Below, one piece after another: positions 15,362 to 20,906 of a DNA stretch of 35,989 bases; position 1 is the first letter of the stretch, and each line of letters starts with the position of its first letter. This DNA comes from Chitinophagaceae bacterium (GTDB lineage: Bacteria > Bacteroidota > Bacteroidia > Chitinophagales > Chitinophagaceae), in assembly GCA_947380435.1 (NCBI GenBank), contig CANCRC010000005.1:1-35989 (forward strand). Reading direction: 5' to 3'. A model generated the notes under the pieces. The model did not search any database. It was not told the DNA's origin and saw only the letters and a program-made list of their open reading frames with translations. A program made the position numbers and the translations under genes.

Positions 15362-16774
15362 CTACTGAATAGTAAAATAGCAACCATCTCCGTAACTTAA
15401 AAAACGGTACTGGTTTTCAATGGCATGCTGGTAAATGGTTTTCCATGAATCGCCTGTAATGGCTGCAATAATTAAAAGTAAGGTCGATTTTGGTTGGTGA
15501 AAATTAGTCACTAAGCCATTGGCTATTTTAAAGCTATATCCTGGTACAATCATTAATTGAGTACTCGTAACAAGCGAATGCATTTTATGCGACTGCATCC
15601 AGCTTAATAATTTACCTAGCGCATCTTTCACAGATATACTGGGATTGAAATTACTATCACTATTCAATACATTATTCGATGCATAATTAGTTTCATAATT
15701 CCCTTCATTATTAGTTTCATAATTAGAATCATAGGCATCCCATTGAACTAAGTGTAGGTCCTTATTTTCTTCTAGGCTAGGGTTAAGTATTAATTTTACG
15801 CCTAACCAATACAAGCTCTCTAGCGTACGCAAGGTAGTAGTACCTACTGCAATCACTGGCGTAGGCGCTGCAAGGTTTAATTCTTTTTGCTTAGCAATGT
15901 TTATTAAATAACTAAGGGTAGCATTGGTAATTTCAAAAACTTCTGCATGCATTTCATGGTCTGTAATGTTCTCTGTTTTAACAGGCATAAAAGTACCAGC
16001 CCCTACATGTAAACTAATAAAATTAGTAGTACATTTTTTTTGAGCAAGTGCATCAAATATTGCCTTGTTAAAATGAAGGCCTGCAGTGGGCGCTGCTACT
16101 GAACCTTCTTCTTTCGCGTAAGTTGTTTGATATCTATCTTTATCTTCTTCTGTGGTAGCGCGTTGTATATAAGGCGGAAGTGGAATGCTTCCAATATGCT
16201 CAATTATTTCAGAGAAAATAATAGCGTCATTGTCCCAAGAAAATTCAATTAAAAATTTTCCCTCCAATGATTTTATTTTTTTAGCACTTACTTTAATAAT
16301 GACCCTGTTGTTATTATTATTATTATTATTATTATCGTTATTATTATTTGCGGCTAGTTTATCTTTTCCATTTTTTGATGGCGTAATAATTTCAAATTCT
16401 TTTTCTAAAAAATCTTCTTTCCATTTTTTAGCACCACCTACTAAACAAATCCATTTTACTTTTCGTGTAGCCTGCATAGCCATGGACATTGGTTGATAGT
16501 CAGCGCTGGGTTCTAAACAAAAAATTTCAATGGTAGAATTATTTGCTTTTTGAAAATGAATTCTTGCAGCAATGACTTTGCTATTATTAAAAAATATTGC
16601 AGCCTTTTCAGGAATGAAATTGGCAATATGATTATAAGTGCTTTCTGCAATGATCTCTTTATCCCATACTAATAGCTTGCTATCCGATCTATTAGTAGCA
16701 GGTGTATAGGCAATACTTTGGTCTGGTAATAGGTAGTCAAAATCCTGAATAGGTAGGCTAATAAGAGGCTTCAT
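15362..16774 (-). CDS. queA: S-adenosylmethionine:tRNA ribosyltransferase-isomerase, with Asn-rich insertions
   Basis: LPDQSIAYTPATNRSDSKLLV, FFNNSKVIAARI, YQTTYAKEEGSVAAPTAGLHF, HVGAGTFMPVKTENITDHEMHAE, TTLRTLESLYW, NFHQPKSTLLLIIAA. Start placed at the ATG at 16774 (MKPLISLPIQDFDYLLP) rather than the track start at 16858. Confidence 0.95.
   Translation of the reverse strand: MKPLISLPIQDFDYLLPDQSIAYTPATNRSDSKLLVWDKEIIAESTYNHIANFIPEKAAIFFNNSKVIAARIHFQKANNSTIEIFCLEPSADYQPMSMAMQATRKVKWICLVGGAKKWKEDFLEKEFEIITPSKNGKDKLAANNNNDNNNNNNNNNRVIIKVSAKKIKSLEGKFLIEFSWDNDAIIFSEIIEHIGSIPLPPYIQRATTEEDKDRYQTTYAKEEGSVAAPTAGLHFNKAIFDALAQKKCTTNFISLHVGAGTFMPVKTENITDHEMHAEVFEITNATLSYLINIAKQKELNLAAPTPVIAVGTTTLRTLESLYWLGVKLILNPSLEENKDLHLVQWDAYDSNYETNNEGNYETNYASNNVLNSDSNFNPSISVKDALGKLLSWMQSHKMHSLVTSTQLMIVPGYSFKIANGLVTNFHQPKSTLLLIIAAITGDSWKTIYQHAIENQYRFLSYGDGCYFTIQ
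15686..15724. repeat. Direct repeat ATTAGTTTCATAATT x2, 24 nt period, inside queA
   Basis: Identical 15-mers at 15686-15700 and 15710-15724; encode the NYETN..NYETN part of an Asn-rich loop. Confidence 0.9.
16308..16348. repeat. (TTA)n / (AAT)n microsatellite inside queA encoding poly-Asn
   Basis: Eight uninterrupted TTA units at 16311-16334, one TCG, then three more TTA; encodes NNNNDNNNNNNNNN on the minus strand. Confidence 0.97.
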
Positions 16775-16778
16775 GGTC

Positions 16779-16811
16779 CAAAGGTACATATTGCCTTGAT
16801 TTTCACTGCAA
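16779..16811 (-). promoter_or_regulatory. Candidate queA promoter, TTG-N22-TACCTTTG on the minus strand
   Basis: Minus strand TTG at 16811-16809 and TACCTTTG at 16786-16779; the -7 element lies only 4 nt from the queA ATG. Confidence 0.5.
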
Positions 16812-16932
16812 TTCACCTCTTTTTCACATAAAAAACAGGCTTTTCCACAGGTTCGCACACTCTTTATTATTGAAATTCCATAAAAACCTTCTGAACCTCT
16901 TTACTGCATTGATTTTCAGCTTGGTTTATTAC

Positions 16933-16966
16933 TTGTGGAAAACTAGAACCCCTGTTTTAGCCTTTG
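16933..16966 (+). promoter_or_regulatory. Candidate mraZ promoter (TTG-N22-TAgccTTTG, one nt longer than the -7 consensus)
   Basis: TTG at 16933-16935, TAGCCTTTG at 16958-16966, immediately upstream of the GTG repeat array. Confidence 0.35.
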
Positions 16967-17006
16967 AAAGTGGTAAAATGTGTTAATTTGTGTGAACAAG
17001 TGGTAA
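16967..17006 (+). promoter_or_regulatory. Candidate MraZ operator: four 10-bp direct repeats, consensus nnnGTGkkAA
   Basis: AAAGTGGTAA | AATGTGTTAA | TTTGTGTGAA | CAAGTGGTAA in perfect 10-bp register, ending 21 bp before the mraZ ATG. Confidence 0.72.
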
Positions 17007-17027
17007 AAATCACTCTAATTATTAACA

Positions 17028-17486
17028 ATGACAGGCTTTCACGGAGAATATCAATCAACTATCGACGCAAAAGGGCGTTTCCATTTACCTGGCAGTTTGA
17101 AAAAACAGCTAGTTGAAGGGGAGAATCGCTTTATTGTAAGTAGAGGCTTTGAGAAGTGCTTGACACTTTATCCGTTAAAAAGCTGGCAAAGTATATTAGA
17201 TCGAATTAGCCAGTTGAATGATTTTGATCCAAAAGTGCGTCAGTTTAGACGTCAATTTCTTGGAGGAGCCACCGAAGTAGAATTAGATGCAGCAGGAAGA
17301 ATTTTATTGCCGCCCACTTTGCGTGAGTTTGCTTTACCAGGTAAAGAGATTGTTTTAGCCGCCGCTTTAGATCGTTTTGAAATTTGGGATGCAAGTAAGT
17401 ACAAACAGCTCTTTGAGGATTTCTCTGCAGATGCATTTAGTAATTTGGCGCAAGAGGTAATGGCAGGAATTAAAAATCAAGATTAA
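17028..17486 (+). CDS. mraZ: MraZ transcriptional regulator
   Basis: FHGEYQSTIDAKGRFHLPGSLKKQL and DAAGRILLPPTLREFA (two MraZ/AbrB-like domains); first gene of the dcw cluster. Confidence 0.96.
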   Translation: MTGFHGEYQSTIDAKGRFHLPGSLKKQLVEGENRFIVSRGFEKCLTLYPLKSWQSILDRISQLNDFDPKVRQFRRQFLGGATEVELDAAGRILLPPTLREFALPGKEIVLAAALDRFEIWDASKYKQLFEDFSADAFSNLAQEVMAGIKNQD

Positions 17487-17495
17487 GTAAAACAG

Positions 17496-18440
17496 ATGCA
17501 AAATCAACCTATTGATTCCAACGCATCTAAAGCTTTTGCTTCTTCTTATCATATTCCAGTATTATTTCAAGAATGCTTGACGCACCTTAACATAAAACCA
17601 AATGGTATTTATGTAGACGCCACATTTGGCGGCGGTGGTCATAGCAAGGGTATCTTGTCTTTATTAGGCCCTGAAGGTCGACTTATTGCTTTTGATCAAG
17701 ATGCTGATGCGCAACAAAACTTACCAAAGGACAATCGTCTTGTTTTTATCCCAGAAAATTTTAAGTATATACAACGGTTTTTACGTTTACATAAAATTGA
17801 TCAAGTGGATGGAATACTTGCCGACCTAGGCGTAAGTAGTCATCAGTTTGACGAAGGGACAAGAGGCTTTTCAACCAGACACGATGGCCCTTTCGATATG
17901 CGCATGGATCAACGCCAAAGCCAAACAGCCGCTCAAATTATTGAATCTTATTCAGAAATAGCATTGCATAAAATGTTTGAACAATATGGCGAAGTAACAA
18001 ACTCTAAAACTTTAGCTAAGCATATTGCCACTCAACGCAAGCATGTTAAAATAAATACGGTTCAAGATTTTAAAACATTTATTGCACCTGTAGTTAAAGG
18101 AAATCCTAATAAATATTGGGCACAAGTTTTTCAAGCCATAAGAATAGAAGTGAATCAGGAAATGGAAGCGCTTAAAGATTTTTTAAAGCAACTTCCCTTG
18201 TTGGTGAAGCCAGGTGGTCGCGCAGTCATAATCACTTTCCATTCCATCGAAGATCGTTTTGTAAAAAACGCTTTTCGTGTATCGCAAGAAGAAGCCGAAG
18301 ATGCCCATCCTTTTTTATCCGTAGAAAAGGAAGTTTTTTGGAAGATCATTACAAAAAAACCTGTAGTGGCTTCTGAAAAAGAGATGAAAGAAAACAATAG
18401 AAGCAGAAGCGCAAAAATGCGTGCTGCCGAAAGAGTATAA
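17496..18440 (+). CDS. rsmH: 16S rRNA (cytosine(1402)-N(4))-methyltransferase
   Basis: HIPVLFQECLTHL, YVDATFGGGGHSKGIL, ADLGVSSHQFDEGTRGFSTRHDGPFDMRMD, KYWAQVFQAIRIEVNQEM, SIEDRFVKNAF. Confidence 0.98.
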   Translation: MQNQPIDSNASKAFASSYHIPVLFQECLTHLNIKPNGIYVDATFGGGGHSKGILSLLGPEGRLIAFDQDADAQQNLPKDNRLVFIPENFKYIQRFLRLHKIDQVDGILADLGVSSHQFDEGTRGFSTRHDGPFDMRMDQRQSQTAAQIIESYSEIALHKMFEQYGEVTNSKTLAKHIATQRKHVKINTVQDFKTFIAPVVKGNPNKYWAQVFQAIRIEVNQEMEALKDFLKQLPLLVKPGGRAVIITFHSIEDRFVKNAFRVSQEEAEDAHPFLSVEKEVFWKIITKKPVVASEKEMKENNRSRSAKMRAAERV

Positions 18441-18444
18441 TAGT

Positions 18445-18789
18445 ATGTCCGTACCCATTAACCCAGCCCCTAAGAATACCATAAAAAGTATTCTTAATTA
18501 TCAGTGGATTGTTATGAACATTAGTTTCTTCTTGTTCTTAGCATTCATCGCTATCCTCTACATAGCGAATGGGCATCTTACCGACAAAACTATCCGTCGC
18601 ATTAACACCACACAAAAAGAGTTGAAGGAGCTACAGTTTGAATACAAGACTATTAAGTCTGAACTAATGCGTCGTAGTCGTGCCATTGAAGTACAAAATG
18701 CCATGGCGCCTTATGGCTTAGTCGTTTCAAAAGAAATGCCTATTCGAATTCCTATTGAAAATAAAATTAAAACCCCAGCCAAAAACTAA
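18445..18789 (+). CDS. FtsL-like small single-pass division protein
   Basis: ~114 aa, one TM segment followed by a short coiled coil (TQKELKELQFEYKTIKSELMRR), between rsmH and ftsI; ATG at 18445 preferred over the GTG at 18421 inside rsmH. Confidence 0.82.
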   Translation: MSVPINPAPKNTIKSILNYQWIVMNISFFLFLAFIAILYIANGHLTDKTIRRINTTQKELKELQFEYKTIKSELMRRSRAIEVQNAMAPYGLVVSKEMPIRIPIENKIKTPAKN

Positions 18790-18791
18790 TT

Positions 18792-20906
18792 ATGGACGTA
18801 AAACGCGACATATTATGGAGGGTTTACTTAAGTTTTATACTTATTGTACTTGTATGTATTCTTATTTTAAGTAAGGCTTTTTACATTCAACAGGTTCAAG
18901 GAAAATACTGGAGAGGCTTAAGCGATAGTTTGCACCAAAGAATTGTAGAGATACCTGCTGCAAGAGGTACTATTTACAGCGAAGATGGACAAATGTTAAG
19001 TACCAATATTCCTCAGTTTGATATTTATATCGATTTTAGAGTAAGCCCTTTACATGAGAAAGGCGGTGTTTTATTTAGAACCCATATCGATTCATTATGT
19101 ATAAGTTTGTCAGATTTATTCAAAGACAAGTCGGCCGATAAATATAAAGAAGAGTTAACCAAGGCCTATGAAGCCAGCGAAGGTAATTATGAGTTAAGAA
19201 AGAAAATTTCTTATAGAGAATATTTACAATTAGTAAAATTTCCTTTATTTAAATTAGGTAGGTATAAGAGTGGGATGATTGCAGAGGAAAAAAATATTCG
19301 TTTAAACCCCTATGAAAACATTGGTTATAGAACCATTGGACTAGCTAGAGATGAAAATAAAGTAGGCCTAGAAAAATCATATGATACAGTTTTAAACGGA
19401 CGTAATGGTCGTCAATTAGTACGTGCTATTGCAGGCGGCGTAACGGTTCCAGTGCAGGAAGGTGAATTTGAAATTGCACCAGAAACAGGTAAGGATATAG
19501 TAAGCACCATTGATGTTTTCATTCAAGAAGTAACAGAGAATGCCTTGAAGAAAATGATGATTCAAAACGATGCCCGTACAGGAGTAGCCATGGTGATGGA
19601 AGTAAAGACTGGGAAAATAAAAGCTATTGCTAATTTAGGTAAAGTAGGAGACGGAATTTATACAGAAGATTTAAATTATGCTACAAGAGTTACAGAGCCT
19701 GGTTCTACTTTTAAATTAGTGACTTTATTATCGGCCTTAGATGATAAAAAAGTAACCTTAGATTCAAAAGTAAATTTAGAAGGGGGTACTTGGAATTATG
19801 CAGGTCGTGTGGTAAGAGATGCGGAGAATCATGGCAAACATGAGGCCACTGTTTTAGAAGCATTTGAAGAAAGTTCAAATGTAGGCATGGCTAAATTAGC
19901 AGTCACTTATTTCAATGATAATCCTCAAGCTTATTTTAAACATATTTCTAAATTAAGAATTGATAGTTCTTCTGGTGTTGATTTAATGGGAGAGGGATAT
20001 CCTTTGCTTATTAAGCCTAATAGTAAAAGATGGGGTCCTACCACTTTACCTTGGATGGCTTTTGGCTATAATATTGCTATTGCGCCTATTCAAACTTTAA
20101 CTATGTATAATAGTATTGCGAATAATGGTGTGATGATGCGCCCTTATTTAGTAAATGCTATTAAAGAAGAAGGCAAGATTCTTAAAACAATGAGTCCTAA
20201 AGCTTATGAAGGAATGGTTTGTTCACCTTCTACCATTAAGGACTTACATACTGCTTTAGAAGGGGTTTGTACGAATGGAACAGCGAAGAAATTATTTGTA
20301 GGTAGTTTATATAAGGTAGGAGGTAAAACAGGAACGGCCTTGGTAGCCGATGGCAACAGAGGCTATGCAGATAATATTTTTCAATCTTCTTTTGTAGGTT
20401 ATTTCCCAGCTGAAAATCCTCAATATACTATTGCAGTTATCATTATCAATCATCCGCATGCGGTAAATCATTTTGGTGCATCGGTGGCAGGTCCAGTATT
20501 TAAAGAAATTGCAGACAGATTATACTCTACTTATATTCAAAACAAATTAGATATTGCTCCGGTTTTTGCTACTAAGGATAGCTCATTATTTAATTATAGT
20601 ATTTCAAAAATATCCTTACAAACTATTGCTAAGCAATTATCTATTCCTTATCAAGACTCTTCAACTGCTTCCAACAATTGGATTCAATTACAAGGCAAGG
20701 GAAAGAATCTTAAAGCAACCACTCAAATACTATCCGATACAACTATGCCCAATATGGCAGGTATGAAATTACAAGACGCTTTATGGCTTTGTGAGAAAAA
20801 GGGATTACAAGTGAAGTTTTTGGGCAAAGGTAAAGTGGTGAAGCAAAGTATTGCACAAGGAGAAATTATCATTAAAGGACAACAAATTCAAATTGAATTA
20901 AATTAA
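18792..20906 (+). CDS. ftsI: Division-specific transpeptidase (FtsI/PBP) with C-terminal PASTA domain
   Basis: PBP dimerisation region (RGTIYSEDGQMLSTN), transpeptidase active site EPGSTFKLVT, SSN (EESSNVGMAKL) and KTGTA; C-terminal PNMAGMKLQDALWLCEKKGLQVKFLGKGKVVKQS is PASTA-like. Confidence 0.95.
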   Translation: MDVKRDILWRVYLSFILIVLVCILILSKAFYIQQVQGKYWRGLSDSLHQRIVEIPAARGTIYSEDGQMLSTNIPQFDIYIDFRVSPLHEKGGVLFRTHIDSLCISLSDLFKDKSADKYKEELTKAYEASEGNYELRKKISYREYLQLVKFPLFKLGRYKSGMIAEEKNIRLNPYENIGYRTIGLARDENKVGLEKSYDTVLNGRNGRQLVRAIAGGVTVPVQEGEFEIAPETGKDIVSTIDVFIQEVTENALKKMMIQNDARTGVAMVMEVKTGKIKAIANLGKVGDGIYTEDLNYATRVTEPGSTFKLVTLLSALDDKKVTLDSKVNLEGGTWNYAGRVVRDAENHGKHEATVLEAFEESSNVGMAKLAVTYFNDNPQAYFKHISKLRIDSSSGVDLMGEGYPLLIKPNSKRWGPTTLPWMAFGYNIAIAPIQTLTMYNSIANNGVMMRPYLVNAIKEEGKILKTMSPKAYEGMVCSPSTIKDLHTALEGVCTNGTAKKLFVGSLYKVGGKTGTALVADGNRGYADNIFQSSFVGYFPAENPQYTIAVIIINHPHAVNHFGASVAGPVFKEIADRLYSTYIQNKLDIAPVFATKDSSLFNYSISKISLQTIAKQLSIPYQDSSTASNNWIQLQGKGKNLKATTQILSDTTMPNMAGMKLQDALWLCEKKGLQVKFLGKGKVVKQSIAQGEIIIKGQQIQIELN

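Follow-up and report, generated by a model that had tools for sequence, protein, structure and literature searches.

A conserved array of GTG repeats upstream of mraZ, a probable MraZ operator in Chitinophagaceae, and its DnaA-box-like companions

Four GTG-cored repeats at an exact 10-bp period immediately precede mraZ, the first gene of the dcw cluster of a Chitinophagaceae bacterium, and by their likeness to published sites they very probably form the MraZ operator, the site at which mraZ and the dcw cluster would be autorepressed. The array was found in a window of 35,989 nucleotides, the whole stretch of DNA that was analysed (Table 1). It reads AAAGTGGTAA AATGTGTTAA TTTGTGTGAA CAAGTGGTAA, stops 21 bp short of the mraZ start codon, and matches GTGKKAA in all four units. 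The positions of the GTGs, and the AA that closes each 10-mer, had been recorded in an initial annotation and proved exact when the sequence was read again. The same annotation proposed an MraZ operator, a reading that is supported by the conservation of the register in the family and in the class, by a build like that of published sites, and by the adjacent mraZ gene.

Table 1. Positions in the window of the array, the candidate promoter elements, the DnaA-box-like sites and the first dcw genes
Feature	Position	Strand	Remark
Weaker DnaA-box-like site TTTTTCACA	16820..16828	+	Fits TTWTNCACA
Second DnaA-box-like site TTTTCCACA	16841..16849	+	Convergent with the site at 16934
DnaA-box-like site TTTTCCACA (TGTGGAAAA on the + strand)	16934..16942	-	36 bp upstream of box 1
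Candidate -33 element TTTG	16963..16966	+	Separated by 17 nt from the candidate -7 element; weak, spacing varies among relatives
Putative MraZ operator	16967..17006	+	Four 10-bp units, unit GTGKKAA; GTG at 16970, 16980, 16990 and 17000
Candidate -7 element TAATTTGT (TAnnTTGY)	16984..16991	+	Inside boxes 2-3; inferred start ~16996
TTATTAACA	17019..17027	+	Abuts the mraZ start codon; candidate DnaA-like site or start-codon context
mraZ	17028..17486	+	PF02381, 113 bits; first dcw gene, product presumed to bind the array
rsmH (mraW)	17496..18440	+	PF01795; second gene, presumed regulated operon
ftsL-like gene	18421..18789	+	PF19579; presumed regulated operon
Penicillin-binding protein gene (ftsI-like)	18792..20906	+	PF00905, PF03717, PASTA; presumed regulated operon

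The MraZ encoded beside the array is a two-repeat protein with 35% identity to E. coli MraZ and 86-100% identity to the MraZ of Sediminibacterium-like MAGs, and a sequence search relates it to the solved MraZ structures 1N0E and 9QLG/9QLR/9SX6.

The array occurs once in this genome. The pattern GTG(N7GTG)x3 has a single occurrence in the whole 2.1-Mb genome, at the array itself, and a looser search for three copies with at most two mismatches returned only two overlapping registers of the same array. Thus, a second MraZ target of such a build is not visible, and no further target was found in the 2.1 Mb at that threshold. When the 200 bp upstream of mraZ were dinucleotide-shuffled 100,000 times, the four-copy chain was never reproduced, and a three-copy chain appeared 20 times. 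A search of Rfam with positions 16700-17200 gave zero matches to RNA elements.

The alignment of related mraZ upstream regions, which the initial annotation had named as a test that could refute the operator, shows that the 10-bp register holds. Three sets were compared: 110 Chitinophagaceae mraZ upstream regions (the family set), 60 loci from other Bacteroidia families, with miscalled starts and same-family loci removed by hand (the class set), and named genomes in which mraZ was located with a single MraZ protein as query. Exact GTGs spaced 10 bp apart number three or more in 105 of the 110 Chitinophagaceae loci, as compared to 0.07% of shuffles, and the remaining five deviate by one or a few bases. 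The family consensus, anchored on the core, is AAAGTGGGAAAAAGTGTTATTTTGTG; in its three core boxes, conservation of the GTG columns is 96-100%. Among close Sediminibacterium-like relatives with an intact region, all four GTGs are kept in 54 of 54 while other positions vary, and at least four GTGs are present in 76 of the 79 named relatives overall. In the class set, 40 of 60 loci carry at least three exact GTGs and 56 carry at least two; here the arrays consist of GTGG[TG]AA repeats, mostly GTGGTAA or GTGGGAA, and the period is also 10 bp. Box 1 reads GTGGG in many relatives, and many have ATG as the fourth unit or lack that unit, so an array need not have four copies. At some loci (L101, L102, L103, L107, L111 and L128) the array extends further upstream, with as many as five GTG units in register, indicating that its copy number is variable.

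Promoters of the Bacteroidota follow the consensus TTTG/TANNTTTG (PMC6847099), with a TAnnTTGY variant known from F. psychrophilum (PMC9723704). Boxes 2 and 3 are joined in Chitinophagaceae by the linker TATTTTGT, which becomes TAATTTGT in the window, and this linker fits TAnnTTGY in 103 of 110 loci. In the other Bacteroidia families, GTGGTAA is found in its place, and a TAHHTTTR sequence lies at most 75 bp from the start codon in 49 of 60 loci. The simplest reading of these sequences is that the -7 element of Chitinophagaceae lies inside the MraZ operator, in which case MraZ would block the polymerase directly. Two other candidates for the promoter were rejected. An exact TAnnTTTG promoter just before box 1 is found in only one of the 110 family loci, and a promoter scan for sigma-70 yielded three weak promoter-like matches of a class that is wrong for Bacteroidota; the same scan returned no terminator.

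MraZ acts as a ring-shaped octamer (PMC7761207). The oligomeric ring would touch successive GTG units, which are one helical turn apart and thus on one face of the DNA, and the array appears to overlap the probable -7 element and the start region of the dcw promoter. Because of this overlap, bound MraZ would most likely exclude RNA polymerase, resulting in autorepression of mraZ and in dampened expression of rsmH, ftsL, the penicillin-binding protein gene and the genes downstream. Here, we infer both the position of the promoter, from its sequence, and the binding and repression by MraZ at the array, by analogy with published work on other bacteria.

The putative operator is not alone in the upstream region. 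Four TTWTNCACA sites occur in the 36-kb window, and three of them, at 16820, 16841 and 16934, fall within 123 bp. Across the genome, TGTGGAWAA (TTWTCCACA in reverse complement) is found 27 times and the reversed control 73 times; two of the 27 lie here, 93 bp apart. Together, the two TTTTCCACA sites make up an inverted repeat with 12-nt arms (16841-16852 and 16931-16942) separated by 78 nt. As listed, the adjacent queA-like ORF (15362-16858, minus strand) starts with a GTG at 16858; an in-frame ATG at 16774 agrees better with the domain and is more likely to be the start, and the DnaA-box-like sites are thus probably intergenic. The sequence that abuts the mraZ start codon, at 17019-17027, is TTATTCACA in several close relatives.

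Such sites are both enriched and conserved upstream of mraZ in the family, among close relatives and in the class. Nearly every Chitinophagaceae locus has TGTGGAWAA at 35-38 bp upstream of box 1 (exact in 92 of 110, at most one base off in 105), and at this position two loci of the family (L009 and L010) have TTATTAACA, inverted. Farther upstream, TTWTCCACA occurs an additional 0.57 times per family locus, where 0.006 are expected, and an additional upstream site is retained in 53 of 53 close relatives. For 30 loci, 49 TTWTCCACA sites were counted in 9.9 kb upstream of mraZ, as opposed to none in 93 kb of flanking sequence. In the class set, TTWTYMACA lies within 60 bp of box 1 in 49 of 60 loci, compared with 2.8% of shuffles. 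It is usually on the plus strand, 10-12 bp ahead of the first GTG, and mostly abuts the array. Here, TTTTCCACA, TTTTCAACA, TTATCAACA and TTATTAACA are interchangeable at the site, with TTWTYAACA, a variant of TTWTNCACA, often found. Of these sequences, TTTTCCACA is the cyanobacterial DnaA box, and TTATCAACA is one box in a DNA fragment to which Cyanothece DnaA binds (PMC4674748), while TTWTCAACA has been proposed as the mollicute DnaA box (PMC3322544). A literature search of limited scope turned up no paper that places DnaA sites at the mraZ promoter of a Bacteroidota member.

It is quite possible, though we stop short of calling it probable, that the flanking sites belong to a composite switch in which DnaA also binds the MraZ-operator promoter, such that dcw transcription would follow the replication-initiation cycle. 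This proposal extends the explanation of the array as an MraZ operator, and is no replacement for it. It draws on the enrichment and position of the sites in the family and class described above, on their rarity in the rest of the genome, on the interchangeable forms TTWTCCACA, TTWTCAACA and TTATTAACA, the first two of which are known or proposed DnaA boxes, and on the genome's own DnaA, which carries the recognition motif GGRDHTTV. In addition, a TTATCCACA pair is found near the skew minimum in one complete relative (G023). However, with its near-fixed spacing the family site could also serve another factor, as part of the promoter or as an upstream activator element; the orientation and distance of the site vary between families, and TTATTAACA is more remote from the DnaA consensus. 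A factor other than DnaA may bind the flanking sites. A promoter that would couple replication to division through DnaA and MraZ is plausible.

A somewhat more doubtful reading is that TGTGGAWAA is a part of the housekeeping promoter, corresponding to the -33 region, or else an additional, degenerate MraZ box, and no DnaA site at all. Its near-fixed distance upstream of the array is consistent with either. As a promoter part, it ends in an AT-rich tract, and the -33 regions of F. johnsoniae are AT-rich (PMC6847099). A general promoter element should be common, however, and with 27 occurrences in 2.1 Mb TGTGGAWAA is too rare for one. As an MraZ box, it contains GTGGA, resembling GTGG[GT]A, but at the fifth base, which is G or T in MraZ boxes, most of the 110 loci have A. 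Both versions are at odds with similar sites that occur in the opposite orientation and elsewhere upstream.

The clustering of three of the window's four TTWTNCACA sites is also what a replication origin upstream of mraZ might produce, although we consider such an origin very unlikely. In relative G023, the cumulative GC skew has its minimum at ~0.5-0.7 Mb and mraZ is at 0.041 Mb; an oriC at mraZ was rejected for this genome, in which the skew minimum and the TTATCCACA pair are ~0.63 Mb from mraZ. Nor is mraZ regularly close to dnaA: among 12 genomes that are complete or nearly so, only 3 have the two genes within ~20-66 kb of each other. A second genome sampled for GC skew (G005) had no clear skew. 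The two members of the G023 pair are 34 bp apart (L214, G023:C1:672148-672190), at 0.672 Mb and near the GC-skew minimum, and mark a possible oriC that is remote from dnaA (2.54 Mb). Finally, a functionless GTG periodicity arising by chance in an AT-rich leader, for which it can be said that two spaced copies appear in 4.7% of shuffles, is scarcely credible for an array that is unique in the genome, and is refuted by the conservation of its register across family and class.

With the array read as an MraZ operator, the operator itself is the expected part of this region, and the DnaA-box-like companions, conserved in most of the Bacteroidota examined, are the unexpected part. They make control of the division operon by replication initiation directly testable in the Bacteroidota, a phylum in which few studies have addressed control of the cell cycle. 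In their sequence and clustering the flanking sites are like known DnaA boxes (TTWTNCACA), from which they differ in being situated at the dcw promoter and not at the origin.

MraZ operators are reportedly known from Mollicutes through the work of Fisunov et al. in 2016, quoted in PMC5282649 and PMC8475190, and from E. coli through that of Eraso et al. in 2014. The initial annotation had set the two apart, as a TGGGN type in E. coli and an AAAGTG[T/G] type in Mollicutes, a contrast that is not real. Upstream of mraZ, E. coli K-12 reads GTGGGAAATT GTGGGGCAAA GTGGGAATAA, with the GTGs exactly 10 bp apart; since this is the same register, the two types represent one motif. Like the window array, the E. 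coli operator lies just upstream of mraZ. Unlike it, the window has GTGGT, GTGTT and GTGTG in place of GTGGG, and a fourth exact unit. The units of the window do not fit TGGGN, a mismatch that reflects lineage-specific sequence variation and leaves the shared GTG core intact; it is the GTG core that is common to the MraZ sites of distant bacteria (PMC7761207). The E. coli region also differs in lacking a TTWTNCACA site in the 146 bp read.

For the Mollicutes, the MraZ site is given as (AAAGTGKN3)3 (PMC5282649), and the window array is like it in consisting of GTG-cored direct repeats of 10-bp period upstream of mraZ and the dcw cluster. That the first unit, AAAGTGG, fits the Mollicute box was correctly noted at the outset, but the strict match to AAAGTG[T/G] is confined to this unit: the fourth is CAAGTGG, and units 2 and 3 (AATGTGT and TTTGTGT) have no AAA before the GTG. 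Further differences are the AA that closes the window repeats, the Bacteroidota-type promoter of the organism, and the DnaA-box-like sites that flank the array. The single array target per genome is shared with M. genitalium, in whose chromosome the AAAGTG[T/G] repeats are present once (PMC8475190).

In Burkholderia, four 7-nt GTG repeats with 3-nt spacers extend across the start site, and MraZ binding has been shown (PMC7761207). The window array has the same four 7-nt repeats, 3-nt spacers and recurring GTG as the B. cenocepacia site, and a different promoter class; the latter site has a mapped start site and MraZ binding by mobility shift, whereas in the window the start is predicted near 16996. 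As this architecture has been published for other bacteria, the array would be an ordinary MraZ operator, new only for the Bacteroidota. It would extend the range of MraZ operators to this phylum, and unify the E. coli-type and Mollicute-type boxes in a GTG core repeated with the helical period.
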